DNA from: Verrucomicrobiota bacterium
GTDB taxonomy: Bacteria; Verrucomicrobiota; Verrucomicrobiia; Opitutales; Opitutaceae
Assembly (NCBI GenBank): GCA_016871755.1
Contig: VHCJ01000001.1
Location: 1-64,000, forward strand
Direction of reading: 5' to 3'
DNA length: 64,000 nucleotides
The position numbers and the translations under genes were made by a program. Positions 4,674 to 44,171 of the stretch are shown here, one piece after another. Under the pieces are notes generated by a model. It worked only from the letters and a program-made list of their open reading frames with translations. It ran no database searches and was not told where the DNA came from. Positions within the stretch are counted from its first letter, which is position 1. Every line of letters begins with the position of its first letter.

Positions 4674-4683
4674 ACGCCCGCGC

Positions 4684-10928: not shown

Positions 10929-10965
10929 GGCCGGGACGTGAGGTTCCACGACCGCCACCGACCGC

Positions 10966-13552: not shown

Positions 13553-13585
13553 GTCACCTCACTTCGTCACGCCAAGCCCTCGGCT

Positions 13586-14611
<1,026 letters not shown>

Positions 14612-15992: not shown

Positions 15993-16009
15993 GGGGACGG
16001 GAGGAGGAC

Positions 16010-17212: not shown

Positions 17213-17213
17213 G

Positions 17214-18287
17214 TCAGCTGTCCGGGTTGGAGGAAATGCTCACCGTGAAGCGGGGGGCCTTCACCGCGCCCGTACTGTTCTTCGCCGCGCCACCCGTCGC
17301 CGCCATCCCGGCTCCGGTCCCTTGCGGCACCGCCCGCGCGCCGGCGGCCCCGGCCGGGCTGGCCGAAGGCGTCGGCCGCGTCGCCGGCGCCGTCTCTTCG
17401 GTCGCGAAGAGCACCGGCACCTGCTTCTTGCCGAGGGAAAGGTTGATCATGCCCACCGGACGCTCCCGCGTCTCCGACAGCACGGCATCCAAGAGTGCGA
17501 CCTGGGTGAAGAAGTCGTCCCGGAGGCCGAAGACAATTTCCCGCACGTGCTCGGTCCGCACGAGGATTTCGCCGTAGCTCGCAAACCGGTCCATGCCGAT
17601 CACCCGCCAGGTCCGGCGCAGATTCGGCACGTTGATCTGCGCGGTCTCCAACAGGTCGGCCACCGTCTCGAGTCCCGCCACCGGCGCGAACCCGCCCCGC
17701 GCCAGCGGAGCGAGGGTCACGCCGTCCAACCACGGCAGGGCCGCCACCAACTCGGGCGCATAGTTCACGCCTGGAAACACCATCCCATCGCGGGCGACGA
17801 GGTAATCGCGCGGCTGTCCCGAGCGATCCGCGACGCGCAGGCGTACGACCGGGCTGCGCTCCTGCAGCGTCACCACCAAGGTGTCGGGAAACTTCCGGGT
17901 CAGCACCGCGGTCCGCACCTGCGGGTCAGCGAGCAAGTGCGACTGCAGAGCGTCAAGGTCGAGTTCCATCAGCGCCACCCCGCGCGGCAGCGCGAGCTTC
18001 TCGACCACCCACTCCTCGTCGAGGACGCCATTGGTCGTGAGCTTGATCGTGCGCAGGGGATCCGACTTCACCGGCGCGGCGAGCTTCATGGGGTCATGCC
18101 GCCAGAGCTGCACCACTTCCCACCCCGCCCACGCGAGGCAGGCGACGGCAGCGAGGGCGAATCCCGCCTTCACGAACCCCATCGTCAGGCGCCGCCGGCC
18201 CTCGCGCGACATGGAGCGGGGCGCGACTTCCTGGGGAATGTCGCGCCACGAACGGGCGGAGAAAACGAGGCCAGCGGGCTTGTTCAT
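17214..18287 (-). CDS. ftsQ: Cell division protein FtsQ (POTRA domain)
   Basis: FtsQ is a bitopic inner-membrane divisome protein. From the chosen ATG at 18287 (1 nt after the ddl stop; an upstream start would overlap ddl) it has 357 residues. It has a cytoplasmic N-tail and one transmembrane segment (GFALAAVACLAWAGWEVV). A POTRA domain (about 80-150: EEWVVEKLALPRGVALMELD, ADPQVRTAVLTRKFPDTLVV) leads into the FtsQ beta domain. An unusual Ala/Thr/Pro-rich tail of about 50 residues ends the protein. Position between ddl and ftsA confirms the assignment. Confidence 0.9.
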   Translation of the reverse strand: MNKPAGLVFSARSWRDIPQEVAPRSMSREGRRRLTMGFVKAGFALAAVACLAWAGWEVVQLWRHDPMKLAAPVKSDPLRTIKLTTNGVLDEEWVVEKLALPRGVALMELDLDALQSHLLADPQVRTAVLTRKFPDTLVVTLQERSPVVRLRVADRSGQPRDYLVARDGMVFPGVNYAPELVAALPWLDGVTLAPLARGGFAPVAGLETVADLLETAQINVPNLRRTWRVIGMDRFASYGEILVRTEHVREIVFGLRDDFFTQVALLDAVLSETRERPVGMINLSLGKKQVPVLFATEETAPATRPTPSASPAGAAGARAVPQGTGAGMAATGGAAKNSTGAVKAPRFTVSISSNPDS

Positions 18288-18288
18288 C

Positions 18289-19218
18289 TCAGCGGATCCC
18301 GCCACGGAAGCGCCGCAGCGCCGGGTTCACCAACTCCCTCACCAACGAGGTGAAATCCAATCCCGCGCAGCGAGCGCTCATGGGCAGGAGGCTCGTGTCC
18401 TTCATGCCGGGGAGCGTGTTGATTTCGAGCAAAAACAATTCGTCGCGGGGCGAGAGCATGAAGTCGATGCGCGCATAATCACGGCAGCCGCACGCCGCGA
18501 ACGCCCGCTCCGCCGCCGCCTGCGCCGCCGCCGTCACCGCGTCCGACAGAGGCGCCGGCGCCAGATACTGGGTCAACCCCTTGGTGTACTTCGAGGTGTA
18601 GTCAAAGGTCCCGCCTTGGGGCACGACCTCGACCACGCCCATCGCCTTGCCATCGAGCAGGCCCACCGTGAGCTCACGGCCCCGGATCCGCTGCTCCGCC
18701 AGCCACTCGCCGTCCGCCAGTCCGGCCAGCGCACGCTCAAGTCCAGCCGGGTCATCGCAAACCGCCAAGCCGACGCTGCTGCCCGAGGCCCGGGGCTTGA
18801 GCACGACCTCCGGACCCAGCCGGGCGACCAGGTCCGCCGTGGTCGGGCGGTGCGAGGCCGGGAAGCTCACCCCCGCCGCCACGCGCACGCCGGCCGCCGC
18901 CACCGCCTGCTTCGTCCGCTCCTTGTCAAAGGTCAACGCACTCGACGCCGCATCGCAGCCGGCGTAGTGGACACCCGCCGCGTTGAGCAGCGATTGCATC
19001 GCTCCATCCTCGCCAAAGGTGCCGTGGAGGGTGGAGAAGACCACGTCGCGCGCCGGATCCAGCCCGACCGGCAGCCGCGCCTCCCGCACCTCCACGAGGC
19101 GGGTCGGAAAGGTCCGCGCCAGCGCCAGCGCGCTCGCCCGGCCGGAGCCGAGCGAGACTTCGCGCTCGGCCGACACTCCGCCGCACAGGACCACGATCGT
19201 TGGGGTCAGGGTTGTCAT
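18289..19218 (-). CDS. ddl: D-alanine--D-alanine ligase
   Basis: Ddl joins two D-Ala for the peptidoglycan pentapeptide. The 309 residues carry the ATP-grasp features VVLCGGVSAEREVSL, TLHGTFGEDGAMQSLL, DKERTKQA, LKPRASGSSVGL and the metal-binding C-terminal RIDFML...LFLLEINTLPGM. The length matches DdlB-type enzymes. It sits between murB (4 nt upstream) and ftsQ. All catalytic blocks are present, so it should be active. Confidence 0.96.
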   Translation of the reverse strand: MTTLTPTIVVLCGGVSAEREVSLGSGRASALALARTFPTRLVEVREARLPVGLDPARDVVFSTLHGTFGEDGAMQSLLNAAGVHYAGCDAASSALTFDKERTKQAVAAAGVRVAAGVSFPASHRPTTADLVARLGPEVVLKPRASGSSVGLAVCDDPAGLERALAGLADGEWLAEQRIRGRELTVGLLDGKAMGVVEVVPQGGTFDYTSKYTKGLTQYLAPAPLSDAVTAAAQAAAERAFAACGCRDYARIDFMLSPRDELFLLEINTLPGMKDTSLLPMSARCAGLDFTSLVRELVNPALRRFRGGIR

Positions 19219-19222
19219 CGCG

Positions 19223-20182
19223 TCAAAGTTCCTCCCGCCAATCGCCGCCGTAAAGCAGAACCTCCGGCTCGAGGGTCACGCCCTTCACCTGCTGCACGCG
19301 CTCCCGCACGCGCCGCACGAGGGCGATCACGTCCGCGGAGGTGGCGCCGCCGCGGTTGATAATGAAGTTGGCGTGCACGGTCGCCACTTCAGCCCCGCCC
19401 ACGCGCTCGCCCTTGAGTCCGGCGGCATCAATCAGGCGCCCCGCCGAGTCTCCGGGCGGGTTCTTGAACATGCACCCGGCACTGGGCTCGCGGGGCTGCG
19501 ACTGGTGACGCTTGTCGCGGTACGCATCGATCTGCCGGCGGATCGCCTCGTCCTCACCGGGTGCAACGCGCGCCGGCCGCAGCACCGCCTCAAGTGCGAT
19601 CGCCGTCTCCAGCTCCGCGCAATGACGATAATCGACGTTCATTTCGTCCTTCCGGTAGGTGCGGACCTCGCCCTCCCGCGACATGACTCGGACTTCCTCG
19701 ACGACATCGAACATCCAGCCCCCCATCGCTCCGGCGTTCATGCGCAGCGCGCCGCCGACGTTGCCGGGGATGCCTTCGAGGAATTCGAAGCCCACGAGGC
19801 CCGCCTTGCTCGCAAGGCCGCAGAGATTCTTCAGGCGAAGCCCGGCGCCCACGCGCACGCGGCCGTCCGCCTCCGGCAGGAAGCGCTGCCACGCCGGATG
19901 CCCGAGGCTGATCACCACCGCATCCACGCCCGCGTCCGGCACCAGCAGATTGGAGCCGCGGCCAAGCATGATCATCGGCACGCCGGCCGCCGCGACGCGT
20001 CGAACCACCGCGGCCAGGTCGGCCTCCGACGCGGGCTCGGCCAGGATCCTCGCCGCCCCGCCCACCCGCAGGGTCGTGCGCGTGGCGAGCGCTTCCTCGC
20101 GGCGCACCGCGGACTCCGGTGCCAGCGCCGCGCGGAGCGCCTCCGCCAGCCGATCCCAGTCAGGGGTGCCTTCCGCGCTCAT
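19223..20182 (-). CDS. murB: UDP-N-acetylenolpyruvoylglucosamine reductase MurB
   Basis: MurB is the FAD-dependent enzyme that forms UDP-MurNAc. The 319 residues have RTTLRVGGAARIL, MLGRGSNLLVPD, FEFLEGIPGNVGGALRMNAG and the catalytic-loop region PSAGCMFKNPPGDSAGRLID. Cys stands in the proton-donor position that is Ser in E. coli; Cys there is known in other MurBs. Its ATG overlaps the murG stop by 4 nt (ATGA), so no murC lies between them. Confidence 0.96.
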   Translation of the reverse strand: MSAEGTPDWDRLAEALRAALAPESAVRREEALATRTTLRVGGAARILAEPASEADLAAVVRRVAAAGVPMIMLGRGSNLLVPDAGVDAVVISLGHPAWQRFLPEADGRVRVGAGLRLKNLCGLASKAGLVGFEFLEGIPGNVGGALRMNAGAMGGWMFDVVEEVRVMSREGEVRTYRKDEMNVDYRHCAELETAIALEAVLRPARVAPGEDEAIRRQIDAYRDKRHQSQPREPSAGCMFKNPPGDSAGRLIDAAGLKGERVGGAEVATVHANFIINRGGATSADVIALVRRVRERVQQVKGVTLEPEVLLYGGDWREEL

Positions 20183-21306
20183 ACCGCCTCCATTCCCGGT
20201 TGCGCCGCCGGTCGCGGCCGGGATGCCGCGATCGACTCCAGATCGTTGGCCAGCACCGCCGCCGCATCGACCGCCTGCTGGGACCGCAACGCCGCCCGGT
20301 GCGCGGCGAGGGCCTGCGGATCCGCCAGCAGCGTCCGCACGACGGCCGTGAGTTCCACGAGGCGCCCCTGCGGCAGTTGCCGCCCGCCGCCGTCCTGGAC
20401 AAAGGCCACGGCGTTCGCCGTCTGATGATTGTCCGCCGCCTGCGGATACGGCACCAACACTGCGGGCGTTTCCGTGCGCACGAGTTCCGCGATCGTTCCG
20501 GCCCCCGCGCGGGAGACCGCAAGATCGGCGGCCGACAACACCGTGGCCATGCGATCCGAAAACGGGACCTCAATCACGCGCACCTCGCCCCCCTCGCGAT
20601 CGCGCAGCGGGCGCACCTCCGCCGCGCCCTTGCCGAGCCCGGTGAGGCAATAGAGCTGGATGCCGCTCTCCGCGAGTTCCGCTGCCGCCCCGCGGGCCCA
20701 CGTATTGAGGGCCGACGCGCCCTGACTGCCGCCGAGCACGACCACGACGGGTCGGTCGACGAGAAGACCCAGTGTGCGCCGCGCTCCCTCGACCGGTTCA
20801 CGCCGGAACTCGCGGCGCAACGGCAGGCCCGACTCACGCACCGCGCCGCGGCGGGCGGATCGGAGTGCGACTCCCGGGGGGAGATACACGCGGCGGGCGA
20901 GCCGCCCCAGGACCCGCACGGCCCGGCCGGGCACGCGATTGGCTTCGTGGAGCACGACGGGCACGCCGAGGAGCCACCCCGCCACCGCCGGGCCCACGGA
21001 CGTGAAACCGCCGAAACCGATCACCGCCGCCGGCCTCTCCCGACGCACGCGGCGCCAGCCCGCCACCAAGGCGCGGAGCTGCCCGAGTCCGAAGCGGGCC
21101 ATCCCCAGCACGCCGCCGTCGAGACCGGCGGATGCGACCGGCTCGAACACCAGCTGCGGGTACTTCTCAGCCAGACGCGCATCGACCTGCTTGCGGCTGA
21201 TCAGGAGGCGCACCTGATGCCCGCGCCGCTGCAGTTCCTCCGCCAGCGCAATCCCCGGCGCCAAGTGTCCGCCGGTGCCGCCACAGGAAATGAGGAAACG
21301 ACTCAT
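20179..21306 (-). CDS. murG: Undecaprenyldiphospho-muramoylpentapeptide GlcNAc transferase MurG
   Basis: MurG converts lipid I to lipid II at the inner face of the cytoplasmic membrane. The 375 residues from the ATG at 21306 include ISCGGTGGHLAPGIALAEEL, the GFGGFTSVGPAVAG and VVLHEANRVPGRA blocks, VVVLGGSQGASALN and SRAGAGTIAELV, all typical of the GT28 fold. A longer frame runs upstream into ftsW but has no family similarity. The start overlaps the ftsW stop by 4 nt and the stop overlaps murB by 4 nt. Confidence 0.96.
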   Translation of the reverse strand: MSRFLISCGGTGGHLAPGIALAEELQRRGHQVRLLISRKQVDARLAEKYPQLVFEPVASAGLDGGVLGMARFGLGQLRALVAGWRRVRRERPAAVIGFGGFTSVGPAVAGWLLGVPVVLHEANRVPGRAVRVLGRLARRVYLPPGVALRSARRGAVRESGLPLRREFRREPVEGARRTLGLLVDRPVVVVLGGSQGASALNTWARGAAAELAESGIQLYCLTGLGKGAAEVRPLRDREGGEVRVIEVPFSDRMATVLSAADLAVSRAGAGTIAELVRTETPAVLVPYPQAADNHQTANAVAFVQDGGGRQLPQGRLVELTAVVRTLLADPQALAAHRAALRSQQAVDAAAVLANDLESIAASRPRPAAQPGMEAV

Positions 21307-22469
21307 GCTGTCACCTCCTCCAGCCCGCGCGTCGAAAGTCCCGCGCCCGGCTTCCCCCACGATCGCTGCGTATTCACGAGGATGCCAAGGATCAACCCCA
21401 TCAGCACGAGGTTGGAAAGACCTGCGCTGATGAAAGGCAGCGACATGCCCTTGGTCGGAAGGATGCCGGTCACCACGCCCAGATTGATGACCGCCTGGAG
21501 CAGCATGAGCAGCAGGCACCCGGCCACCAGCAGGTAGTGGAAGAGGTTCGGCGCCCGCCGCAGGTGAATCAGCCCCGCGATGAACATGACAAGGAACACG
21601 GCCACCACTCCCAGCGTGAACCAAAGTCCGAGTTCCTCGCCCACCACCGCGAAGACGAAGTCCGTGTGCGCCTCGGGCAGGAAATTCATCTGTTGCCGCC
21701 CCTGCCCCAGACCCGCTCCCTCCGTCCCCCCCACCGCGAACGCCGCAAGCGACTGATAGAGCTGGTAGGTTCCCGACTGCTTGTTGCCCTCGACATCGAG
21801 GAAGGCCATGAAGCGGCGCAGGCGGTTGGGGTTGTGGATCACGAGCACGGCGAAAGCGACGCCCGCCGCCATGACCGCCGGCAGGATGTAGCGCCACCGC
21901 GCCCCGGCGAGGAACATGAGCACCACCCCCACCGAAAACACCAGCGCCGCCGTGCCGAAGTCCGGTTCAAGGACGATCAGCGAGGCAAAGGCCACGACGA
22001 TCAGCAGGGGCTGGGCGAAGCCGCGCCAGAAGTCCGAGAGTCTCGTCTGGTTCGCCGCGAGGAAGTGCGCGAGGCAGAACACCATCGCGAGCTTGCCGAG
22101 CTCCGACACTTGGAAACGCAAGCCGCCCAACCCGAGCCAGCGTCGACTGCCCTTCACTGAGATGCCGAGCCCGGGAATCAGCACCAGCACGAGCAGCAGC
22201 AACGACACCCCTCCCACCACCCAGATGTAGCGGCGCGACAGTTCCAGATCCACCCGGCTCGCCACCCAGCCGACCCCCACCGCCAGGCCGACCCCGATCA
22301 ACTGCTTCGTCACGTAGAAGAGCGGCCCCTGCTTGAAAGCCGCACTCGCACTGAAGAGGATCGTGATCCCAAGGAAGGTCAGCGCCACCGCGCAGACGAC
22401 GATCACCGCCACCGGACTCAGGCTGAGCCGCGGGCGGGGAGAGTCGTTCGACGCGCCAGAGCCGATCAT
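21303..22469 (-). CDS. ftsW: Septal peptidoglycan polymerase FtsW (SEDS family)
   Basis: FtsW is the SEDS glycosyltransferase that polymerises septal lipid II together with FtsI. The 388 residues have about ten transmembrane helices. Signature segments are KGSRRWLGLGGLRFQVSELGK, FLPEAHTDFVFAVVGEELG and GILPTKGMSLPFISAGLSNL. The C-terminus is a short cytoplasmic tail. It follows the LysM lipoprotein gene after 60 nt. Confidence 0.96.
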   Translation of the reverse strand: MIGSGASNDSPRPRLSLSPVAVIVVCAVALTFLGITILFSASAAFKQGPLFYVTKQLIGVGLAVGVGWVASRVDLELSRRYIWVVGGVSLLLLVLVLIPGLGISVKGSRRWLGLGGLRFQVSELGKLAMVFCLAHFLAANQTRLSDFWRGFAQPLLIVVAFASLIVLEPDFGTAALVFSVGVVLMFLAGARWRYILPAVMAAGVAFAVLVIHNPNRLRRFMAFLDVEGNKQSGTYQLYQSLAAFAVGGTEGAGLGQGRQQMNFLPEAHTDFVFAVVGEELGLWFTLGVVAVFLVMFIAGLIHLRRAPNLFHYLLVAGCLLLMLLQAVINLGVVTGILPTKGMSLPFISAGLSNLVLMGLILGILVNTQRSWGKPGAGLSTRGLEEVTA

Positions 22470-22529: not shown

Positions 22530-23597
22530 TCACGCTCGGCTCACGGCGTCCCCACCCTTCGGCGTCTCCTGCACCTGAATCACCGGCACCTCGGGCGCCG
22601 GCGTCAGGGGGGACTCGTTCGCCGGCGTCGCCACGGGGAGGAAGGGGCTCGACGCATCCGCCGGTGTCGCCGACGAAGCCGACGCGGGCACCGCCACGGG
22701 CGCCGTCGCCTTCCGACCGGGAATCACCAGTTCCTGTCCCGGGCGGATCCGCGAGGGGTCCGCGATGTTGTTCGCCGTCGCCAGGGCTCCCACTGTCACG
22801 CCGTAAAGCTTGCGGATTGAGTCGAGGCTCTCCCCCGGCTTCACGACGTGCACCAGCGCGCCATTCGCGTTGACGGTCGCGGCCGCCGGTGGAGCGGGCT
22901 TCGCCACGCTCGGCTCCGGCAACGCCATCCCCGGCTCCGGCACCGTCAAACGCTGCCCGACCCGCACCAGATCCGACTTCAAGCCGTTCAGGCGCTTGAG
23001 CGTCGCAATCGTCGTGCCGTGCTGGCGCGCAATCGTTCCAAGGGTGTCGCCCCCCTTCACCACGTGCACCCGCGCGTCATCGCCCGACGGGGCCGTCGTC
23101 GCCGCCGCGCGCTTCGGCGCCGGGACGAGGAGTTTCTGGCCGACCGCGAGGGTCGCCGACGGAGAGAGCCGGTTCGCCTCGGCGACCTCCGCGACCGTGA
23201 GATTGTAGCGCCGCGCCACCGTCCAAAGGCTGTCCCCGCGTACCACCACGTGCGTGCGCGCCGGGGTCACCCCTTCCGCCGTCGGTGCCGCTCCGGGCGT
23301 AACCGCTCCGGGCCGGAGCGGACTGAAGCGCACCGTTGCATCGGCGGGAACCGGTGCGGTGGCGCCCGCGGGCGCCGCCACGGGAGGCGGTGCGCTCTCC
23401 GCCAACGGCGCCACGGCCGCGAGGTCGGATGGCCCCTCCACGGGCGCCGGCGCCACGGCGTCCGCCGCCGTCACGGTATCGGCCGGAGTCGGCGGAGCCT
23501 TCCGGGCCGTCGTGCGGCAGCCGGGCACGGCGAAGATCACGAGGAAGACCCCGAGGTGCACCGCGAGGACGACGCCGAAGATGTGGAGGATTTTCAT
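22530..23597 (-). CDS. Lipoprotein with three LysM domains, inside the dcw cluster
   Basis: This is a predicted peptidoglycan-binding envelope protein of 355 residues. The N-terminal segment MKILHIFGVVLAVHLGVFLV ends in the lipobox-like VPGC with Cys27. An Ala/Pro-rich linker follows. Three LysM repeats start near 116 (VVRGDSLWTVARRYNLT), 177 (VVKGGDTLGTIARQHGTT) and 248 (VVKPGESLDSIRKLYGVT). A Pro/Ala-rich tail ends the protein. There is no hydrolase domain. Its place between the murD-like gene and ftsW suggests a septal or wall-anchoring role, but this is inferred from position only. Confidence 0.9.
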   Translation of the reverse strand: MKILHIFGVVLAVHLGVFLVIFAVPGCRTTARKAPPTPADTVTAADAVAPAPVEGPSDLAAVAPLAESAPPPVAAPAGATAPVPADATVRFSPLRPGAVTPGAAPTAEGVTPARTHVVVRGDSLWTVARRYNLTVAEVAEANRLSPSATLAVGQKLLVPAPKRAAATTAPSGDDARVHVVKGGDTLGTIARQHGTTIATLKRLNGLKSDLVRVGQRLTVPEPGMALPEPSVAKPAPPAAATVNANGALVHVVKPGESLDSIRKLYGVTVGALATANNIADPSRIRPGQELVIPGRKATAPVAVPASASSATPADASSPFLPVATPANESPLTPAPEVPVIQVQETPKGGDAVSRA

Positions 23598-23650: not shown

Positions 23651-24493
23651 TCAGGTCGCCGCGAAGCGTTGCGCCGCAGCGTAGAGGATGCTCTCGCGCA
23701 GGCCGGCGGCGCGCCACCACGCGGCGGCCAGAAGGAAGGTCTCCCGCGCCGGTTCGCTTTCAAAGGGCGTGTGCCGGAGCAGCACGTCGCCGGAGGCCTC
23801 ATCCGTTGTCACCCGGGAATCGGAGGGAAGGGTCTGACCGAGACGATCGGCCCAGCGCTGAACCGTCTCGCCCGCGAAGACTTCCCCGCCCACCGCCCGT
23901 TCAAACATCCGCCAGCCCGCCGCAAAGGCCGCCGCCATGGAGCCATGACGACCCGACTCCTCCTCCAGCAGATTCGTCCAAATCACTGCGTCCGCCCGCA
24001 GGTGGCGCAGGGGAAGCGCGGCGCCGGCGTCCATCCGGCTGACCAGGATCGAGTCGGGTGCACCGCCGCGCCGGGAGGCCACCACGCCCGCGAGCCCGCC
24101 GTCCGCCCGCTCCGCACCGACCACGTCGTGGCCGGCCAGATGGAGAGCCTCCGTGAGGAGTCGCACCAACCGCGTCTTGCCCCGCGTGCCAGTGACCACC
24201 AGCAGTCGTCCGCGCCAGAGGAGCGGGGCAAGGTCGTTCTCGTGCAGCACGACGAGCCCGCCCTCGCCGCGCGCCGCGCTTGCCGGCGGCAGGCGGCCCT
24301 CGTCCGACCCGGCCGCCACCACGGCGAGACCCGGCGCCGGATCGCCGTGCACCGCCTCAAGGCGATCCTGCCGCCAGACTTCCACGCCAAGCCCACTGAG
24401 AAGGGCGGTGACGCCCGCCGCGGCGGGTTCCGAGCCGACCACCGCGACGGGCCGGGCGAGCAACAGAGTCAGGAAGGATGGAGGCTGGAGCAT
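23651..24493 (-). CDS. Truncated, degenerate MurD-like protein
   Basis: At the murD position this ORF encodes only 280 residues (MurD is about 450). It keeps a Rossmann-like N-domain (PVAVVGSEPAAAG), a P-loop TGTRGKT (101-107, usually GTNGKT) and a middle-domain trace IWTNLLEEESGRHGSM (171-186). That trace aligns with the family motif TNxxxDHLDRHGS but has lost the DHLD residues. A helical stretch (RETFLLAAAWWRAAG) matches the end of the central domain. The whole C-terminal ligase domain is missing, and only 53 nt separate the stop from the LysM gene, so no frameshifted remainder exists. Ligase activity is unlikely. It lies 6 nt after mraY. Confidence 0.8.
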   Translation of the reverse strand: MLQPPSFLTLLLARPVAVVGSEPAAAGVTALLSGLGVEVWRQDRLEAVHGDPAPGLAVVAAGSDEGRLPPASAARGEGGLVVLHENDLAPLLWRGRLLVVTGTRGKTRLVRLLTEALHLAGHDVVGAERADGGLAGVVASRRGGAPDSILVSRMDAGAALPLRHLRADAVIWTNLLEEESGRHGSMAAAFAAGWRMFERAVGGEVFAGETVQRWADRLGQTLPSDSRVTTDEASGDVLLRHTPFESEPARETFLLAAAWWRAAGLRESILYAAAQRFAAT

Positions 24494-24499: not shown

Positions 24500-25618
24500 T
24501 CAGCGCAGTTTCAGCGTTCCCAAACCCACCAGGGCGCACAGGAGCGAGATGACCCAGAAACGCAGCACCACCTTGGTCTCCGGCCAGCCCTTTTTCTGGA
24601 AGTGATGGTGCAGCGGAGCCATGAGGAAAAAGCGTCGGCCCTCGCCGGTCGGGCTGCGCCGCTTCGTCCACTTGAAGACCCCGACCTGGATGATCACCGA
24701 GACGGCCTCCGCGACGAAGACGCCGCCGACGATCGCCAAGGTGAGCGGCTGCTGCACCATGAACGCGATCACGCCGATCAGCCCACCCAGGGCCAGCGAG
24801 CCGGTGTCGCCCATGAAGACTTCCGCCGGATGCGAGTTGAACCACAGGAACGCCATGCCCGCACCGGCCAAGGCGCCGCACACCACCGCCAATTCGCCCG
24901 TACCCGGGACGTGGCCGATCAGGAGGTACTCCGCGATCCGGAAGTTGCCCGCCGCATACGCCATGATCCCGTAGACCAGCGCCACCGTGATCGTGCAGCC
25001 GATCGCCAGGCCATCCAGACCGTCCGTGAGGTTGATCGCGTTCGAGAAACCCACGATCCAGAGGAACATCAGGATGAACAACGCCACCACCGGAAGCCCG
25101 ACGATGAGAGGCACCTTGAGGAAGGGGATCCAGAGCTCGCGGATCGGCCCCGCGCTCATCGGATGCCACGCCAGCACCACCAACGCGGCCAGCGTCACGA
25201 GGGTCTGCCAGACGATCTTCTCCCGCGAGGAGATGCCGGCGCGGTTGCCCCGCCGCACTTTCAGGTAATCGTCCCGGAAACCGACGGCCGTGAGCGAGGC
25301 ATAGACGCCAAGCGCAACCAGCACCCAGATGTTCGGGGTGGCCCACAGGAGAACGCTCACCGAGACCGCCGCAAAGATCATCAGGCCGCCCATCGTCGGC
25401 GTGTGCTTCTTGTCGAAGCGCTGCGCGAGGTCGCCCGTCCGGTCGTCGTCATAGCTCGGGCCAAACTTCAGCCGCCGGAGCCAGGCGATCAGCATCGGCC
25501 CGATCACGAAGCCGACCACCAGCGCGGTCATCGCGGCCAGCAGGGTGCGCAGGGTGATGAAGCGCAGGAGGCGGAGGGGACCGAACAGGTCTTCGAATTC
25601 GGCGAGATAGCTCAGCAT
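24500..25618 (-). CDS. mraY: Phospho-MurNAc-pentapeptide translocase MraY
   Basis: MraY makes lipid I on undecaprenyl phosphate in the inner membrane. The 372 residues from the ATG at 25618 have about ten transmembrane helices. They keep KKHTPTMGG, the catalytic FSNAINLTDGLDGLAIG, FMGDTGSLALGG and the HHH-containing PLHHHFQKKGWPETKV. The longer frame upstream is shadow sequence within murF. The gap to murF is 13 nt. All active-site blocks are intact. Confidence 0.96.
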   Translation of the reverse strand: MLSYLAEFEDLFGPLRLLRFITLRTLLAAMTALVVGFVIGPMLIAWLRRLKFGPSYDDDRTGDLAQRFDKKHTPTMGGLMIFAAVSVSVLLWATPNIWVLVALGVYASLTAVGFRDDYLKVRRGNRAGISSREKIVWQTLVTLAALVVLAWHPMSAGPIRELWIPFLKVPLIVGLPVVALFILMFLWIVGFSNAINLTDGLDGLAIGCTITVALVYGIMAYAAGNFRIAEYLLIGHVPGTGELAVVCGALAGAGMAFLWFNSHPAEVFMGDTGSLALGGLIGVIAFMVQQPLTLAIVGGVFVAEAVSVIIQVGVFKWTKRRSPTGEGRRFFLMAPLHHHFQKKGWPETKVVLRFWVISLLCALVGLGTLKLR

Positions 25619-25631
25619 GGCATCACGGTGC

Positions 25632-27005
25632 TCAGTGTCCGGCCTCCCCCAGCGCGCGCTCCAGCGCATGTCGGCGGCTGCCCTTGACGAAGATCGATCC
25701 GCGGAAGGCCGCGACCCGCGGGGCGAGGCTCGCTGCATCGGCCACGAGCTCGATGCGCTGCGGGTCCACGCCCGCATCCGCCGCCCCGGCCCGCACCGCC
25801 TCGCCGTAGCCGCCCACGAAGCAACACCGGTCTCCCGGACGGAGCGGCAGCCGGCGACCCAGTTCGCGGTGATGGCGCTCGGCCTCCGCCCCAAGTTCCT
25901 CCATCGCGCCGAGCACGAGGAACCGCGGTGCGCCGGCCGGAGCGACGCGCACGAAGGCGTCCAACGCATCCGCCATCGAAGCCGGGTTGGCGTTGTAGCA
26001 GTCGACGTAAACGAGCCGATCCCCGTGCCGCCGGACCTCCGCCCGGAGGTCGCCGGACCTCCACTCCGCCAGCCGCCGCCGCAGGGAGTCGACCGGCAGG
26101 CCCAGCCGCAGGGCCACGAGGAGGGCGAGCACCGCGTTCCGGGCCAGCCCGTCCGAAACCAAACCCATCGTGAACGGCGTCTCGGGCACTGCGGAGAGCC
26201 GGAGCTCCGTCTCCTCCGCGTGCCGCACGAGGAGATAGCGCGCCCGTTCCGCTCCGATCGGCTCGCGCAGGGCCGCCGGATCTTCCACCTGCTCCGCCCG
26301 AAGGCTCGAAACCGTCAAATCCCGGAACGCCGCGTACTGTCGGCACTCCGCCGGAAAGACCGCGACCCGAGCGGCCCGGGGCAACTCCGCCTTCTCCCGC
26401 GCCACTCCCTCCAGCGATCCCAGCGCCTCCAGGTGCGCCGGACCCACCATCGTGATGATCGCAAGGTCCGGCTCGATCATCGCCGCGAGCGGCGGCATAT
26501 CCCCGGGCCCGCTGATGCCCGCCTCCACCACCGCGTACGCGTGCTCCTGCGGATCAAGCCGCAGGAGGGTCAGGGGCACGCCGAGATGGTTGTTCAGGTT
26601 GCCCCGCGTCGGGAGGACCCGCGGTTCGCCGCCCAGCAACTGCGCCAAGAGGTTCTTGGTCGAAGTCTTGCCCGCACTGCCCGAGATGCCGATCACTGGA
26701 CCCCGGAAACGGCGACGATGCTCCCGCGCCGCCGCCTGCAGCGCCAACAGGGGATCAGCCACCACCAACTGCGGCAGGGGCTCCTCCGTTGACGCCCGCG
26801 CCACGAGGGCCGCCGAGGCCCCTTTCGCCCGCGCCTCGGCGAGAAAGGCATGTCCGTCCCGGCGCTCCGTGCGCAGCGCCACGAATACGTCGCCCGGCTG
26901 CAGGGTCCGCGTGTCCTGCGTAAAGCCGGTCAGGCCGCGCTCCGGGCGCCGGGTCCACACCCCGCCAGTCGCGCGGGCCAGAAATTCGGGACTGAACGTC
27001 GGCAT
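25632..27005 (-). CDS. murF: UDP-MurNAc-tripeptide--D-Ala-D-Ala ligase MurF
   Basis: MurF adds D-Ala-D-Ala to complete the UDP-MurNAc-pentapeptide. The 457 residues keep the P-loop GSAGKTSTK, GNLNNHLGVPLTLLRLD and ITMVGPAHLEALGSLEGVAREK, whose Lys is the expected carbamylation site. CYNANPASMADALDAF and the C-terminal VKGSRRHALE are also present. Some positions are relaxed: the usual MNHPGE is ISGPGD and the GxHNxxN block has lost its His. Overall the enzyme looks functional, in contrast to its MurE and MurD neighbours. Confidence 0.93.
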   Translation of the reverse strand: MPTFSPEFLARATGGVWTRRPERGLTGFTQDTRTLQPGDVFVALRTERRDGHAFLAEARAKGASAALVARASTEEPLPQLVVADPLLALQAAAREHRRRFRGPVIGISGSAGKTSTKNLLAQLLGGEPRVLPTRGNLNNHLGVPLTLLRLDPQEHAYAVVEAGISGPGDMPPLAAMIEPDLAIITMVGPAHLEALGSLEGVAREKAELPRAARVAVFPAECRQYAAFRDLTVSSLRAEQVEDPAALREPIGAERARYLLVRHAEETELRLSAVPETPFTMGLVSDGLARNAVLALLVALRLGLPVDSLRRRLAEWRSGDLRAEVRRHGDRLVYVDCYNANPASMADALDAFVRVAPAGAPRFLVLGAMEELGAEAERHHRELGRRLPLRPGDRCCFVGGYGEAVRAGAADAGVDPQRIELVADAASLAPRVAAFRGSIFVKGSRRHALERALGEAGH

Positions 27006-27012: not shown

Positions 27013-28608
27013 TCAACCTCCGCGGCACGCGCCGCGCCCCATCAGGAGTTCCCGCGCCACCCGGCGGTCATCGAAGGGAACAATCGTGTCCGCCATCTCC
27101 TGCCAGCCGTCGGGTCCGCGACCGGCGATCAGCACGGCATCACCCGGGCCCGCCATGTCGAGGGCGAGCGCGATCGCCCGGCGGCGGTCCTCGATCCACG
27201 CGACGCGCCCGGGTTCGGTCACGCCGCGCGCGAGGTCGGCAAAGACGCGCCGCACGCCTTCGGTCCGGGGGTTGTCAGCCGTCGCAATCACGAAGTCCGC
27301 GCCGCGCTGCGCCGCCGCCAGCAGCGCTGGGCGGCCGGAGCGGTCGCGGTCACCCGCCGCTCCGAGCACGGCGATCACGCGGCCCGGGACCCCAGCCCGC
27401 ACCGTCGCCAGCGCCGTCGCCAGCGGGGCGGCGGCATTCGCCGCGTCAACGACCACCCGGAAGGACTGCCCGGCCTCGACGGGCTCCATGCGGCCGGGGA
27501 TCGACGCGAGGCCACCCGCCGCCGCCACGAGGGGTCGGAGGTCGCGGCCGAGCGCCCAGAGGGCGGCCAGCGCCGCGAGCAGGTTGTCGACGTGGCGGCG
27601 CCCGATCAGGGGCGAGGCCACCGACGCCTGCCCGCCCGGCCAGACGAGGCGGAACCGCGCTCCGCCAGCCCCGCACTCCATCGCCTCCGCCCGCACGTCG
27701 GCCGATGCCGCCGACCCAAAGGTCACCACGCGCACGCCGGCCGGAATGCGCTCCCGGACCCCGGTCCCGCCCGCATCATCCGCACTCAGCACCACCACGC
27801 CCGGCTGCACGCCGAATTCGCCCGAGAGCAGCCGGGACTCGAGGGGCGCGACGGTGGCGGCATCGCGACGCGCCTCCCCCGCGTCATCCGTCCGGGGCAG
27901 GAGCACCACCGCGCCGAAGCGGACACCGAGGACGCGCTGCCGGGCGATGCCTCGGGCGCTGACCTCCACCACGGCTTCGCTGCAACCGGCGTCCCGCATC
28001 TGCGCGAGCAGGCCGAAGGTGTCCAGAGCCTCGGGCGTGGTGAGGTACGCCGGCACCGTGCGCCGACCCAGATGGTAATGGATCGAGCTGATCAGTCCGG
28101 CCCGCGGCCCGTCCGGGCGGTCGAGCAGGTGCTGCAGGAGATGCGCCACCGAGGTCTTGCCCCGGCCGCCCGTGACGCCAATCACGCCCAGCGCGGAATC
28201 GGGGAAACCGTAGAAACGCTGCGCGGCGCGCGCGAGCAGGGCGCGCGGATCGTCGACCTGCAGCGCAGTCACGCTCGACGGCAGGGACCCCGGAAGTCGC
28301 AGGGAGACGATCGCCACCGCGCCGCGGGCCACCGCCTGGCCGATGAAGTCCGAGCCATCGGCCTGGTGCCCCGGCAGCGCGAAGAAGACGTCGCCCGGCA
28401 CGACCCGGCGGCTGTCGATCGCGAGGCCCGAAACCGGCCGGGTCAGCGATCCGCGCACCGTCCGCAGTTCATCGGAGCGAAGCAGGTCCGCCAATCGCAG
28501 GCGGGACGGGATCGCGGGGCCGCTCCAGGTCGGACTTGCGCGGTCGCGGCCAGCCCGGCTGCGGGGCAACGGGCGCGCCGGCACGGGGGGAAGCAGGTAG
28601 CTGATCAT
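27013..28608 (-). CDS. MurE homologue with eroded active-site motifs
   Basis: In the murE position and full length (531 residues), with an extra N-tail of about 36, it clearly shares the MurE fold: IDSRRVVPGDVFFALPG, TTPE (190-193), RVIAVLGAAGDRDR and DNPR (445-448), the meso-DAP motif. Many catalytic positions differ from the family. The P-loop is VTGGRGKT (145-152, normally GTNGKT). EVSSHAL is EVSARGI, DHLDxHG with the carbamylated Lys region is DDAGEAR...LESRL, DYAHTPD is DAANAAA (388-394) and GKGHE is GRGPDG (496-501). It is either a highly divergent MurE or a non-catalytic relative. The start overlaps the ftsI stop by 4 nt. Confidence 0.85.
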   Translation of the reverse strand: MISYLLPPVPARPLPRSRAGRDRASPTWSGPAIPSRLRLADLLRSDELRTVRGSLTRPVSGLAIDSRRVVPGDVFFALPGHQADGSDFIGQAVARGAVAIVSLRLPGSLPSSVTALQVDDPRALLARAAQRFYGFPDSALGVIGVTGGRGKTSVAHLLQHLLDRPDGPRAGLISSIHYHLGRRTVPAYLTTPEALDTFGLLAQMRDAGCSEAVVEVSARGIARQRVLGVRFGAVVLLPRTDDAGEARRDAATVAPLESRLLSGEFGVQPGVVVLSADDAGGTGVRERIPAGVRVVTFGSAASADVRAEAMECGAGGARFRLVWPGGQASVASPLIGRRHVDNLLAALAALWALGRDLRPLVAAAGGLASIPGRMEPVEAGQSFRVVVDAANAAAPLATALATVRAGVPGRVIAVLGAAGDRDRSGRPALLAAAQRGADFVIATADNPRTEGVRRVFADLARGVTEPGRVAWIEDRRRAIALALDMAGPGDAVLIAGRGPDGWQEMADTIVPFDDRRVARELLMGRGACRGG

Positions 28609-30473
28609 GGCCGGCCTCCCTCGAGCGCGAACAGCGGGCGGGCGAGCGCGGCGCCGCCGGGTTTGATGTCAAGATACTGGATGAGTTGTTCCGCGATGCG
28701 CTTGAAGCTCGGCGCCGCCACCGCCGCCCCGTAGCCCGTGCCGCCGTTGGGGCCGTGACCGTCGTCCACGATCACCGAGATCACCAACTCAGGCCGGCTG
28801 GCGGGGAAGAAGCCGACGAACGAGGCGATGTGATGCTGACTGGAGTAGCGGCCGTTGATCAGCTTCTGGGTCGTACCGGTCTTGCCGGCGATCTCGTAGC
28901 CGGGGATGGCGGCAACCGGTGCCGTGCCTTCACCCTGGACGGTCACGCGCGCCAGCATCGTGGTCATCGTCTTCGCCGTGGTGTCCGAGATCACGCGGCG
29001 CCGGGTCACCGGGGCGAAGCGGTACACCGTCTCGCCCTGGGCGTCGCGGATTTCGCGCACGACCTGCGGGCGCAGGAGCTCGCCGCCGCTCGCGATCACG
29101 CCCATCGCATAGTGGATCTGCAACGGCGTCGCGGCCACCGTGTGGCCCATCGGGATGCGGGTGATGTCGGAGCCGCTCCACTTGGAGTAATGGGCGAACA
29201 GGCCTCCCGCCTCCGGGTAGATCGGGGCCAGCCCGGTCGGTTCGCCGAATCCAAACGCCCGCGAGTAGTCATGCAGGCGTTTTTCCTGGAGCAGCATGCC
29301 GAGCTGCGCCGCGCCCTTGTTGGACGAGTGCGAGATGATCTCCGAGAGCGTCAGCGGGTGGGAGAAGCGATGGTCCTCCCGCGGCAGGTCGCGCATCCGG
29401 CCCTTGTACTCAACCCGCTCCAGCGAGCAGTCGAAGGAGTCCCGGGGCGACACCAGACCCTCCTGCAGCGCCCCCGCCGCCGGCACGATCTTGAAGGTTG
29501 ACCCCGGTTCAAGGACGTCCGCGACCGCGATGTTGCGCAGTCGGCGGATCTCGGTCGCCGGGATGCTGCGGTACTCGTTGAGGTTGAACGTCGGCCAGTT
29601 CGCGAGCGCGAGGAGGAAGCCCGTCCGTGCATCGCTGACGATGATCGTGGCCTTCTCGGGCTTCGAGGCCGCGACCACCCGGGCCAGTTCCTCCTCCACC
29701 TTGTGCTGGATGACGGAGTCGATCGACAGCACGACGTCGTAGCCGCGCGTCGCGGGCACCTCGCGCACGCGGAACTGCGCGAGTTCCTGCCGCTTGCCGT
29801 CCTTCTCTGACTCGCGCCAGCCGTCCTGCCCGCGCAGGTAGAAATCCGCCCACCGCTCGATGCCCTGGACCGGCACGCCCTCGTCGTTGACGAATCCAAC
29901 GACGTGGGCGGCGAGGTCGTTGCTGGGATAGGCGCGGGTGAACACCCGGGGCGGCGCGTAAACGCCGCGCACGCCGAGCTTAACGATGCGCTCGTAGGTC
30001 TCCTCCTCCACCGCATCGCTGAGCTTCACCCAGCGGATGCGCCGCCCGCCATCCGGCTCCGCCTCGACGGGATCCAAGTCGATCGGCCCGCCGGATTCAC
30101 CGATCGTCGGTGCCGCGGACGCCGGGCGGACCTTGGTGCGAAAGATCGTCTCAAGGTCGCTCGGGCGCAGGCCGAGCAAGCGCGCGAGTTCCGGCCACTT
30201 CGATTCATCCTCCGGCCGCAGCACCTGCGGGTCGACGCCCAGCGAGATCTGCGAGCGCGAGGTCGCGAGGAACTTGCCCCGCGCATCGAGGATGTCACCG
30301 CGCCGGGCGGGCTCGACCACGATCTGGCGCCGGACCTTCTCGACGAAGCTGGTCAGGCGCTCACGGTCAATCACGTGCAGGTGCACGAGGCGCAGCGCGA
30401 TGCCGGCGAAGGCCGCGACCACGGCCGCAGCCACCAGCACGATCCGGTAATTGGAGGCGAAGCCCCGCGCCAT
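28605..30473 (-). CDS. ftsI: Septal transpeptidase FtsI (PBP3)
   Basis: FtsI is the class B penicillin-binding protein that crosslinks septal peptidoglycan with FtsW. The ATG at 30473 gives 622 residues and places the single transmembrane helix at about 11-32; an earlier frame start would add a non-family leader. The PBP dimerisation domain contains RRGDILDARGKFLATS. The transpeptidase domain has the complete triad Ser325-x-x-Lys328 (EPGSTFK), Ser383-Ser-Asn385 and Lys531-Thr-Gly533 (AGKTGTTQ). ftsL ends 40 nt upstream. Confidence 0.96.
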   Translation of the reverse strand: MARGFASNYRIVLVAAAVVAAFAGIALRLVHLHVIDRERLTSFVEKVRRQIVVEPARRGDILDARGKFLATSRSQISLGVDPQVLRPEDESKWPELARLLGLRPSDLETIFRTKVRPASAAPTIGESGGPIDLDPVEAEPDGGRRIRWVKLSDAVEEETYERIVKLGVRGVYAPPRVFTRAYPSNDLAAHVVGFVNDEGVPVQGIERWADFYLRGQDGWRESEKDGKRQELAQFRVREVPATRGYDVVLSIDSVIQHKVEEELARVVAASKPEKATIIVSDARTGFLLALANWPTFNLNEYRSIPATEIRRLRNIAVADVLEPGSTFKIVPAAGALQEGLVSPRDSFDCSLERVEYKGRMRDLPREDHRFSHPLTLSEIISHSSNKGAAQLGMLLQEKRLHDYSRAFGFGEPTGLAPIYPEAGGLFAHYSKWSGSDITRIPMGHTVAATPLQIHYAMGVIASGGELLRPQVVREIRDAQGETVYRFAPVTRRRVISDTTAKTMTTMLARVTVQGEGTAPVAAIPGYEIAGKTGTTQKLINGRYSSQHHIASFVGFFPASRPELVISVIVDDGHGPNGGTGYGAAVAAPSFKRIAEQLIQYLDIKPGGAALARPLFALEGGRP

Positions 30474-30513
30474 GGTCCCAGGTTCCCGATGTTTCGTGAG
30501 AGCCGGGGGCGAT

Positions 30514-30924
30514 TCAGCGCCGCTCCGCCCCGCCTTCCAAGCGGAAGACGACCACGCCCGAACCATCGGCCGGACGGTCCGAGAAGACTTCCTGGTTGCG
30601 CAGCGCCGCGAGTCGGCGCTCCGGCGAGATCGTCACGCGGTGCACCTGTTCCTCCAGCGGCGGCATCAGGCCGAGCCTCCACTCCGCGTTCCGCCGCGTC
30701 AGCGCCTCCAGCGTCTCCTCCGCTGCGACGCGGATCGTCGTCTCCGCCATGCTGCGCTCGACCGCGGCGACGCTCGCCTCGAGCTCGCGCGTCGCGTTGG
30801 CCGTCACCGAAATCTGGTGACGCAGCCACACGGTGCCGAGCCCGATCGAGCCCGTCAGGGAGATCATCACGAGCGTGTAGACGAGGAGTTGGTTGACGAA
30901 GGCGCGGTTGCCAAAGGGGCGCAT
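30514..30924 (-). CDS. ftsL: FtsL-like cell division protein
   Basis: This is a small bitopic protein of 136 residues. It has a short basic N-tail, one transmembrane helix (LLVYTLVMISLTGSIGLGTV) and a periplasmic heptad-like helix (ATRELEASVAAVERSM) that would pair with FtsB-type partners and FtsQ. Sequence similarity to FtsL is low, as is usual for this family. The call rests on topology and on the position between rsmH and ftsI. Confidence 0.8.
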   Translation of the reverse strand: MRPFGNRAFVNQLLVYTLVMISLTGSIGLGTVWLRHQISVTANATRELEASVAAVERSMAETTIRVAAEETLEALTRRNAEWRLGLMPPLEEQVHRVTISPERRLAALRNQEVFSDRPADGSGVVVFRLEGGAERR

Positions 30925-30979
30925 GGGGCGGGGACGGGGCGGGAAGGGAAGACGGGGCGGAGGGAAAACAGGGAGTCGC

Positions 30980-31942
30980 TCAGAGCTTGCGGATCGCGCG
31001 GAGCTTCGCGGAACGGCTGCGCGGGTTGCGTTCGATCTCGGCGGCGTCCGGAACGATCGGGCGGCGGGTCAGAGGCTCGGCCACCTGCGTCAGCGCGCGT
31101 TCATCCTGCGGGCGGGCGTCATCCGCGCTCTCCGGCTGGCCGCAGAGGCGGCGGAAGGCCTGCTTGACCGGCCGGTCCTCCAGCGAATGGAAGGAGATCA
31201 CCGCGAGCACGCCGCCGGCGCGCAGCTTCGCGAACGCCGCTGGCAGCGCGCGCTCCAGCGCACCGAGTTCGTCATTCACCGCGATGCGGATGCCTTGAAA
31301 GGCGCGCGTCGCCGGATGAATGCGCGAGGCATGGCGCTCCCGCGCCGGAATCGCCTCGGCGATCAGCGTCGCCAATGAGGCCGTGCGCTGCAACGCCCCC
31401 GTGCCCCGCGCCGCCACGATCGCCCGCACCACGCGGCGCCAGGATTGTTCCTCACCGTAGTCGCGCACCGCCCGCACCAGCATCTCCTCCGTCGCCGTCT
31501 CCAGCCAACGCGACGCCGGCACACCCACGCGGGGATCCATCCGCATGTCCGCCGGCGCATCGACGCGGAAGGAAAAGCCGCGCTCCGCTTCGTCGAGTTG
31601 AAACGACGAGACTCCCAAGTCGAAGAGGATGCCGTCGAAGTCCGCCTCCGGCAGTTCCGCCAAGCGACCGAAATCGAGATCGACCAAGCGGAAGCGCCCG
31701 GGAAAGCGCGCCGCCACGTCCGCCGCCCGCAGCGCCGCCGCCGGATCGCGATCGAGCGCCACCACCGCCACGCCCGGCGCCGCCTCCAGCAGCGCCGTCG
31801 TATGCCCGCCGCCGCCGAAGGTGCAATCGAGGTAGCGTCCGCCATCGCGCGGCGCCAGCACCGCGAGCGTTTCGCGCCGCAGGACGGGCAGGTGACCGGT
31901 CGCCATGGCGCGCAGGGGTTTCGCAGATGCCTCCACCGCCAT
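30980..31942 (-). CDS. rsmH: 16S rRNA (cytosine-1402-N4)-methyltransferase RsmH (MraW)
   Basis: RsmH is a SAM-dependent methyltransferase acting on C1402 in the ribosomal P-site of 16S rRNA. The 320 residues show motif [17 protein letters not shown], the [20 protein letters not shown] block and [16 protein letters not shown] near the C-terminus. The ATG at 31942 begins 1 nt after the mraZ stop. An in-frame Met 12 codons later is an alternative start. Being second in the cluster after mraZ is the usual dcw arrangement. Confidence 0.96.
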
Positions 31943-31943
31943 G

Positions 31944-32396
31944 TCAGATCCCCAGACGGCGCATCAGGTCGCCGAAGTTGTCGCCCGCCGTCCGCTCCTT
32001 CACCCGCTCCCAACGCTCCGGACTGTAGATGCTGAACTTCGTCAGCGACCCCACCAGCACCGCATCCTTCGCAATCCCCGCCCGCACCAGCAACTCCGCG
32101 TTCACCATCACCCGCCCCGCCTTGTCAAAGGCCAGCGTCTGCGTCTCCGCGAAGAACCGCGCCGCAAAGTCCTGCGCCGCGCCATCCGACAACGCCATCG
32201 CCGCGATCTTCGCGTGCAGCTTCTCCACCTCCAGCGGCGGCAGCACCGCGATGTATCCATCGGGATGCGGCGTAGCCAGGAACACTTCGCCCTCCGCATG
32301 CGCGGCCCTCCACGCCGACGGAATCGTCAAACGATTCTTGTCGTCCAAGGCGTGCCGGAAAAGGCCCGTGTAGAAAGGTTTAGCGGGGGAAGCCAT
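31944..32396 (-). CDS. mraZ: Transcriptional regulator MraZ
   Basis: MraZ is a DNA-binding SpoVT/AbrB-fold protein that forms ring-shaped oligomers and represses the dcw operon. The 150 residues contain two MraZ repeats, each with a DxxxR motif (Asp18-x-x-x-Arg22 in DDKNR, and DKAGR in the second). It is the first gene of the cluster. Directly upstream are four TGGG direct repeats at exact 10-bp spacing, the expected operator. No Shine-Dalgarno sequence is visible before the ATG. Confidence 0.96.
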
Positions 32397-39700: not shown

Positions 39701-39820
39701 CTCGTCAGCCAGGTACTGACCGTCTTCACGACGCCGGTGGTTTACCTCGCGTTTGACCACCTTGCCCGGCGTCGGACCAAGCGCCGCGCGGCCCCGGCGG
39801 TGAAGCCGGCCTCCGCCTGA
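36722..39820 (+). CDS. RND efflux permease (MdtB-like), first of a pair
   Basis: This proton-driven multidrug pump subunit of the HAE-RND family has 1032 residues, twelve transmembrane helices and two large periplasmic loops. The proton-relay Asp pair is in [14 protein letters not shown] near residue 400 and the partner Lys in [15 protein letters not shown] near 920. A permease paralogue follows after 9 nt. This adaptor-permease-permease order is that of MdtABC, where two different permeases form a heterotrimer. The substrate is unknown. Confidence 0.94.
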
Positions 39821-39829
39821 CCGTCCGCG

Positions 39830-42913: not shown

Positions 42914-43036
42914 GCGGGGCAGCAGCGAGGCGGCCCGCTTTCCGATTCGCCCCGGTCGGCGAAATCTGCCAAGCCTTCCGTCCCGCACCTCCGTCGCGCG
43001 ATGCGACAGTGCGCGCGGTGCCGTTTTTCCTTTGCC

Positions 43037-44161: not shown

Positions 44162-44171
44162 GGCCGCGCCC

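Follow-up and report, generated by a model that had tools for sequence, protein, structure and literature searches.

MurC, MurD, and MurE, the ligases through which the stem peptide of the cell wall is added residue by residue, are textbook-essential antibiotic targets. Here, we analyze a 64,000-nucleotide stretch of a Verrucomicrobiota (Opitutaceae) assembly (GCA_016871755.1, contig VHCJ01000001.1, positions 1 to 64,000; henceforth the window), whose division and cell wall (dcw) cluster encodes a MurE that has lost its catalytic motifs. Apart from this gene and a truncated murD, no MurC, MurD, or MurE gene was found in the assembly, which does carry Mpl and a muropeptide-salvage locus; the altered murE and the murD remnant are under purifying selection, and MurC and MurD have been lost together in related genomes. 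With confidence only slightly better than even, we lean toward the reading that this family repeatedly dropped the stepwise MurC-MurD(-MurE) route and obtains all wall peptide via Mpl, from scavenged muropeptides or epimerised L-Ala-L-Glu, that two lineages then lost MurE catalysis, and that in the window's lineage MurE persists, with the truncated MurD, as a non-catalytic wall-complex protein.

The recycling of murein tripeptide in E. coli and Psychrobacter resembles the present case in combining Mpl with a preformed tripeptide, and AnmK, MurQ, AmpD-like, GH3, and AmpG-like genes are found here as well; there, however, Mpl supplements MurC-MurD-MurE, whereas here it would be the sole entry (PMC3060825). 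In the N-acetylmuramic acid (MurNAc) auxotroph Tannerella forsythia, the loss of precursor enzymes is similarly offset by AmpG-based muropeptide uptake (PMC7670621), but that organism lacks the sugar half (MurA/MurB), whereas here MurB is present (MurA was not searched), the peptide half is missing, and dependence on uptake is presumed. The MurD2/MurL pair of Xanthomonas is also comparable, since Glu is epimerised after joining L-Ala and no free D-Glu is needed (PMC8788868); it nevertheless relies on a Mur ligase, MurD2, acting on uridine diphosphate-MurNAc (UDP-MurNAc)-L-Ala, and no MurC- or MurD-type ligase was found in our assembly. A MurE domain within a multi-enzyme wall assembly is described for Bordetella, with a MurG scaffold and MurE-MurF (PMC6420597; PDB 8f5d). 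PAP11, the MurE-like subunit of the plastid-encoded RNA polymerase, has a MurE fold but belongs to a complex that is not part of the wall pathway, and is a precedent for the retention of this fold in another role, although PAP11 is a plant transcription-complex protein and the murE of the window stays in a wall operon. The MurE part of the Bordetella MurE-MurF is taken to be catalytic, unlike the predicted pseudo-ligase of the window.

MurE and the MurD remnant of the window

The two altered ligase genes are as follows.

27013..28608, minus strand: murE-derived predicted pseudo-ligase, 531 aa, ATG start; ATP/Mg motifs lost, UDP-sugar and diaminopimelic acid (DAP) motifs kept (family model and alignment)
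23651..24493, minus strand: remnant of murD (280 aa) that retains just the N-terminal and central domains (MurD alignment and model)

The murE product is assigned to MurE by its family model (TIGR01085, 339.7 bits against a cut-off of 257.3), with all three Mur ligase domains matched (Pfam), and its start overlaps the ftsI stop by 4 bases; the original prediction had described it as full length, in frame, and translationally coupled to ftsI, and its full length is confirmed. It was aligned with MurE proteins from the best 80 of 234 matches in species genomes, mostly titled Opitutaceae or Opitutae, and from two genomes of another genus (G080 and G154, the latter a single contig of 4.15 Mb), giving 83 sequences. 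The closest among the relatives kept belongs to a pond-metagenome Opitutaceae (locus L049, genome G177; henceforth the sister species) with 76% identity, the next reaching at most 53%.

Against the consensus of the 80 loci and the two further genomes, all five blocks in which the original prediction had seen alterations are indeed altered, with a correction to its reference motifs, the family consensus being EVSSHG and DYAHTDD rather than EVSSHA and DYAHTPD. The P-loop GTNGKTT has become GGRGKTS, with T and N lost and K, T, and S kept, and EVSSHG has become EVSARG, retaining the Glu of the block and losing its His. Both His residues are gone where DHLDYH reads DAGEAR, the carbamylated Lys is replaced where KSRLF reads ESRLL, Tyr and His are gone where DYAHTDD reads DAANAAA, and Lys, His, and Glu are all changed where GKGHE reads GRGPD. 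Judging from MurE structures, we take the altered blocks to be those of ATP and Mg binding, and the EVSSH His, DHLDxH, and the carbamylated Lys to be metal-site residues. As the original prediction had also noted, the fold markers and DNPR (residues 445-448) are kept, and so are TTPE and DSRRV...PGDVF. DNPR is presumably the DAP-specificity motif, and DSRR, TTPE, and DNPR are those that we assume to contact UDP-MurNAc-dipeptide and DAP in MurE structures; since the altered protein retains all three, it could still bind the precursor.

Of 179 positions at which 95% or more of 38 relatives agree, the MurE of the window departs at 46 and that of the sister species at 33, with 27 common to both, as compared with a median of 2 in the 38 relatives and a maximum of 17 (in L101, itself without MurC/MurD); given this difference, the motif changes are not ascribed to chance. 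The sister MurE has nine key-position deviations in common with that of the window and still has the carbamylated Lys and the GKGHE His, which indicates that the loss was stepwise. The predicted fold is nonetheless intact, with a mean predicted local distance difference test score (pLDDT) of 86 and a template modeling (TM) score of 0.87 to Staphylococcus aureus MurE (4c12); the top Foldseek match of the model by E-value was PAP11 (PDB 8r6s_Q), followed by true MurEs. As far as sequence can go, these features support a ligase without catalytic motifs that is predicted to be dead.

A parallel defect, which the original prediction had not included, concerns murD and murC. The murD remnant occupies the place of murD in the relatives, with mraY on one side and the genes for LysM and FtsW on the other, yields no Pfam match, and lacks the entire C-terminal domain. 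Its motifs are broken at the same classes as in MurE (GTNGKTT to GTRGKTR, EVSSFQ to RMDAGA, EDHLERHG to EEESGRHG, and AKWRLF, with the carbamyl-lysine, to AGWRMF), the best structural matches of its model are MurD structures (TMq 0.70), and its identity to the sister remnant is 84-85%. The murB frame, which in MurC-keeping relatives encodes a MurC-MurB fusion of ~800 aa, lacks the MurC part in the window. The sister species exhibits the same three defects, namely a damaged MurE, a MurD remnant, and no MurC.

Throughout the window's genome, a draft of 3.67 Mb in 144 contigs that is 97.4% complete, five Mur_ligase_M matches were detected, corresponding to the dead MurE, MurF, Mpl, a second Mpl-like protein on a 4.2-kb contig, and one that we take to be FolC-like. 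The search for a second, canonical murE, which the original prediction had suggested, found none in this 97.4%-complete assembly, so that the murE of the window is the sole one there, and no murD or murC exceeded its cut-off. The Mpl (locus L160, 9843-11279) scored 385.4 bits with TIGR01081, slightly below the cut-off of 388.7, and 234 with the murC model. The second copy (G000:C89:2477-4066, L159) matches the Mpl of the same assembly at 69% identity and those of other Opitutaceae at up to 75%; given this and its small contig, it is likely a stray contig, and a duplication of Mpl as an adaptation was dropped.

Selection was estimated as the ratio of nonsynonymous to synonymous rates (dN/dS; Nei-Gojobori, with bootstrap ranges) between the window and the sister species. 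The ratio was 0.164 (0.125-0.207) for murE and 0.100 (0.060-0.147) for the murD remnant, alongside 0.116 (0.082-0.156) for murF, 0.055 for ftsI, and 0.183 for ftsQ. Within murE, the C-terminal domain was tightest (0.079), the central ATP-binding domain reached 0.210, and the 38-residue N-terminal extension 0.384; no stop or frameshift interrupts murE in either species. Both genes are under purifying selection, and these low ratios indicate that the two dead ligases are maintained as proteins, in agreement with the original prediction for MurE. Between G080, with a damaged MurE, and G154, with a canonical one, constraint is looser (murE 0.384, murF 0.211).

The guanine-plus-cytosine (GC) content at codon position 1 is 0.80 in both murE and the murD remnant, the highest among the dcw genes compared (murE positions 1/2, 0.80/0.58), as would be expected if lost sites drift to codons for Ala, Gly, and Arg.

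Loss of MurC and MurD among the relatives

At the 80 related loci, murD was present in 58, absent in 11, a remnant in one (the sister species), and without a hit in 10 short or cut loci. Together with the window, G080, and G154, the 11 loci and the sister species make 15 genomes without MurC/MurD (henceforth loss genomes), and the two genes were lost together at every locus in which both places could be read. Exactly four Mur_ligase_M matches were found in all 14 loss genomes other than that of the window, as opposed to six or seven in all 17 MurC/MurD-plus genomes counted, which indicates that the genes were not relocated elsewhere. A midpoint-rooted tree of 75 taxa, built from seven dcw proteins, places the loss genomes in seven clades, corresponding to about seven co-losses; support is 0.68 at one separating node, that of L104, and regain by transfer is conceivable. 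In a wider draw of the family, MurD exceeded its cut-off in 147 of 200 genomes, some of the misses being incomplete genomes, and the losses were scattered within genera, the window's own genus included.

Of the 83 MurE proteins, 11 deviate at one or more of 19 key residues, and all 11 come from genomes without MurC/MurD; the deviations are heavy in the window, in the sister species, and, independently, in G080, and light in eight others (P-loop N to S, for example). In G080, the P-loop Asn, the EVSSH His, DHLDYH, and the carbamyl-Lys are hit, with DYAH and GKGHE spared, and four loss genomes (G154, L099, L104, and L109) keep all 19. Changes at the catalytic residues of MurE were thus observed solely in genomes that have lost MurC and MurD. 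Beyond these residues, two MurC/MurD-plus loci (L110 and L114) exhibit eight conserved-position changes each. Our verdict is that the family underwent recurrent loss of MurC and MurD, followed by loss of MurE catalytic residues in two lineages.

For the comparisons below, 41 distinct Opitutaceae genomes were used, comprising the 15 loss genomes and 26 MurC/MurD-plus genomes. The latter were called from the dcw locus in G190-G192, G194, G197-G200, G203, and G193, which is the same genome as G066 (100% over 3612 bases) and was also called by ligase count; the remaining ones were called by ligase count. Loss as a mark of Lacunisphaera was rejected, as MurB and MurC are reported on one protein in L. 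limnophila IG16b (Rast 2017, PMC5303756). DAP and ornithine in hydrolysates, and sacculi, are also reported for L. limnophila (PMC5303756). No report of MurC/MurD loss in Opitutaceae was found among open-licence PMC titles and abstract openings, a search that did not extend to subscription papers. In another family of the order (f21), at least six genomes (G021, G040, G055, G070, G139, and G175) carry two MurE proteins over the cut-off.

Mpl, salvage genes, and possible routes to the stem peptide

Mpl is known to attach preformed L-Ala-D-Glu-meso-DAP (mDAP) to UDP-MurNAc in a single step. Rates of the Psychrobacter enzyme are 260 per min for the tripeptide, 1.4 for L-Ala-D-Glu, and 0.7 for L-Ala, and an E. 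coli murC mutant is complemented by mpl in multicopy (PMC3060825). We found Mpl in all 15 loss genomes. No fixed difference separated their Mpl from that of nine MurC/MurD-plus genomes, and an altered specificity was rejected on this ground. The signature SAFFDKRSK was present in 23 of 25 sequences and SAFFDKRGK only in the window's genome (L160) and the sister species (L161), the two genomes with a dead MurE and a MurD remnant.

Both of these genomes also carry a salvage locus.

G000:C7 (L215), 770-14143: muropeptide-salvage locus of the window's genome, with the same genes and order as in the sister species

In the sister species, this locus encodes an S13 D,D-peptidase, an M20 peptidase, AnmK, MurQ, GHL10, an AmpG-like permease, an Amidase_2 protein, a GH3 protein, and an enolase-superfamily epimerase. 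AnmK and MurQ exceed their NCBIfam cut-offs, Amidase_2 remains below that of the AmpD model, and GH3 scores 200.8 with the NagZ-type model (cut-off 207). Homologs of the epimerase-like gene (at least 68% identity) were found in 13 of 15 loss genomes and in 3 of 26 others (Fisher, 2.7e-6 by genome and 5e-4 by clade); two of the latter three (G189 and G203) belong to sister groups of loss clades, and 8 of the 13 loss genomes have it in the midst of salvage genes. The closest PDB entry of its product is 3iji (447 bits, titled muconate cycloisomerase), followed by 1jpd, 3jva, and 1jpm, which are L-Ala-D/L-Glu or dipeptide epimerases. AmpG-like permeases of at least 160 bits, a line drawn post hoc, occur in 13 of 15 loss genomes and 9 of 26 others (clade-level p 0.003). 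MurI exceeded its cut-off in none of the 15 and in 10 of the 26 (clade-level p 0.07), that is, in only 10 of the 41 distinct genomes. Glutamate racemase as the sole driver was rejected, its absence being patchy in MurC/MurD-plus genomes too, and OppA-type SBP_bac_5 peptide-binding proteins were uninformative as a marker, being present in all genomes compared. No new ligase was recognized next to Mpl or the epimerase-like gene in the neighborhoods read.

In the mechanism we propose, the stem peptide would no longer be added residue by residue via MurC, MurD, and MurE in the window's lineage. L-Ala-D-Glu-mDAP would come from the cell's own wall turnover and from muropeptides taken up from other bacteria, Mpl would join it to UDP-MurNAc, MurF would add D-Ala-D-Ala, and MraY and MurG would act as usual. 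Peptide entry via Mpl would make both the D-Glu supply by MurI and MurC/MurD dispensable, possibly repeatedly, and would then free MurE from catalysis, thereby accounting for the lost MurC, the truncated MurD, and the released MurE. Relatives with a canonical MurE may enter with the dipeptide, MurE still being needed, whereas the window's lineage and G080 would have to enter with the tripeptide. The dead MurE and MurD would be kept, probably as binding or assembly partners in a cytoplasmic wall complex. The flux through Mpl, the origin of the tripeptide, and the present role or partner of the dead ligases are what we infer here, and genome size together with the lake, pond, and soil titles of the relatives suggests a free-living habit. 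Overall, we judge it a little more probable than improbable that Mpl-only entry of preformed peptide replaces MurC, MurD, and MurE while the dead ligases persist non-catalytically. The original prediction had considered a pseudo-ligase regulating or scaffolding wall synthesis at the septum possible; because murC and an intact murD are also missing and the loss recurs in the family, a different way of supplying the stem peptide accounts for the data better than the conversion of one protein into a regulator.

Several observations weigh against this proposal. Recycling alone cannot support net growth, and a tripeptide source for growth is only presumed. In 12 of the 15 loss genomes, MurE still has 16 or more of the 19 key residues, and in four of them all 19, which suggests that UDP-MurNAc-dipeptide is still made somehow. 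The epimerase-like protein is below every NCBIfam cut-off (218.6 against 400 for DgcA and 156.7 against 343 for NF011708), its first model is an N-acetyl-D-Glu racemase with the L-Ala-D/L-Glu epimerase model second, and L-Ala-D/L-Glu epimerases are regarded as catabolic. G181 and G185 lack this gene, and no strong AmpG-like match was found in G180 and G183. All AmpG-like matches are below the curated cut-off of 350 bits, and lowering the line to 80 bits weakens the contrast, with 13 of 15 loss genomes and 14 of 26 others (p 0.04). MurI is also below its cut-off in 16 of the 26 genomes that keep MurC/MurD, and one loss genome, G188, shows partial matches to MurI below the cut-off. The associations, tested by genome and by clade, ignore part of the shared ancestry, and nearly all genomes compared are drafts.

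The same relatives with intact MurE would suit a de novo shunt, in which L-Ala-L-Glu from protein turnover is epimerised, Mpl joins L-Ala-D-Glu, and MurE adds mDAP, the window's lineage having later moved on to the tripeptide. Such a shunt would bypass MurI, MurC, and MurD at once and would agree with the distribution of the epimerase-like gene, including its carriers in sister groups, with the lack of MurI over the cut-off in all loss genomes, and with the complete key residues of G154, L099, L104, and L109. The E. coli and B. subtilis epimerases act on L-Ala-L-Glu (PMC5808125), Mpl takes L-Ala-D-Glu weakly, and multicopy mpl complements the murC mutant (PMC3060825). Yet, in the one enzyme cited, the dipeptide rate is nearly 200-fold below that of the tripeptide (PMC3060825), the product would be unusable by the dead MurE of the window, and G181 and G185 lack a gene whose product is below the NCBIfam cut-offs and has only a putative substrate, while Mpl exhibits no fixed change; we regard the shunt as possible but not likely. 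Replacement of MurC, MurD, and, in the window, MurE by non-homologous ligases (e.g., ATP-grasp) would explain how genomes of 2.5-7.4 Mb, whose wall genes are otherwise complete, obtain peptide, and the searches covered Mur-type ligases only; inspection by eye of the dcw gap, the neighborhoods of Mpl, and the salvage loci read revealed no candidate, no systematic search for one having been made, and we consider such a replacement unlikely.

Three further explanations concern MurE itself or the assembly. A dying pseudogene kept open only by operon coupling would agree with the 76% sister identity, which is below that of most neighbors (though LysM and FtsQ are alike), with the looser murE constraint between G080 and G154, and with the high GC content of the first two codon positions; the low dN/dS between the window and the sister species, especially in the C-terminal domain, the uninterrupted frames in both, and the conserved MurD remnant speak against it, and we give it little credence. 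That MurE is still active with a rebuilt active site is very improbable: the P-loop Lys and Ser, the EVSSH Glu, DNPR, and the fold are kept and the gene is under purifying selection, but both DHLDYH His residues, the carbamyl-Lys, the EVSSH His, the DYAH Tyr and His, and three GKGHE residues (Lys, His, and Glu) are altered at once, and several of the same sites are independently hit in G080. An assembly artefact, with functional murC, murD, and murE in missing contigs or the frame misassembled, is hardly credible even for a draft of 144 contigs, as the dead MurE and MurD remnant are also present in the independent sister assembly and the loss recurs in 15 genomes, one of them a single contig.

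If peptide entry via Mpl is true, the stem peptide can be supplied whole in bacteria with otherwise complete-looking wall genes, insensitivity to MurC-to-MurE inhibitors is predicted, and a need for the wall fragments of others might explain part of the difficulty in culturing Verrucomicrobiota. Two dead ligases under selection in one operon would also offer a clean test of non-catalytic Mur roles.

Remaining genes of the dcw cluster

The other wall genes, those for MurF and MraY included, appear intact. Those from LysM to ftsZ and from ftsL to mraZ are named as we take them to be.

14679..18305, minus strand: ftsQ, ftsA, and ftsZ (presumed)
18289..19218, minus strand: ddl (presumed)
19223..20182, minus strand: murB, standing alone (presumed)
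20182..21306, minus strand: murG, start set by eye (presumed)
21303..22469, minus strand: ftsW (presumed)
22530..23597, minus strand: LysM-repeat protein, between the murD remnant and ftsW (presumed)
24500..25969, minus strand: mraY as the listed open reading frame, true start probably internal (TIGR00445, 340.4 bits, over the cut-off)
25632..27005, minus strand: murF (TIGR01143, 311.5 bits, over the cut-off of 288.6)
28605..30566, minus strand: ftsI-type penicillin-binding protein, overlapping murE by 4 bases
30514..32396, minus strand: ftsL, rsmH, and mraZ (presumed)

Between the window and the sister species, the compared neighbors, named by position and sequence features, are 78 to 95% identical (MurG 87%), with FtsA compared over 195 residues only and FtsZ outside the comparison; LysM stands at 70% and FtsQ at 78%, next to the 76% of MurE. 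Farther along the window, at 36722-47252, lie what we take to be three large genes for efflux transporters of the resistance-nodulation-division (RND) type with adjoining membrane-fusion-like genes.
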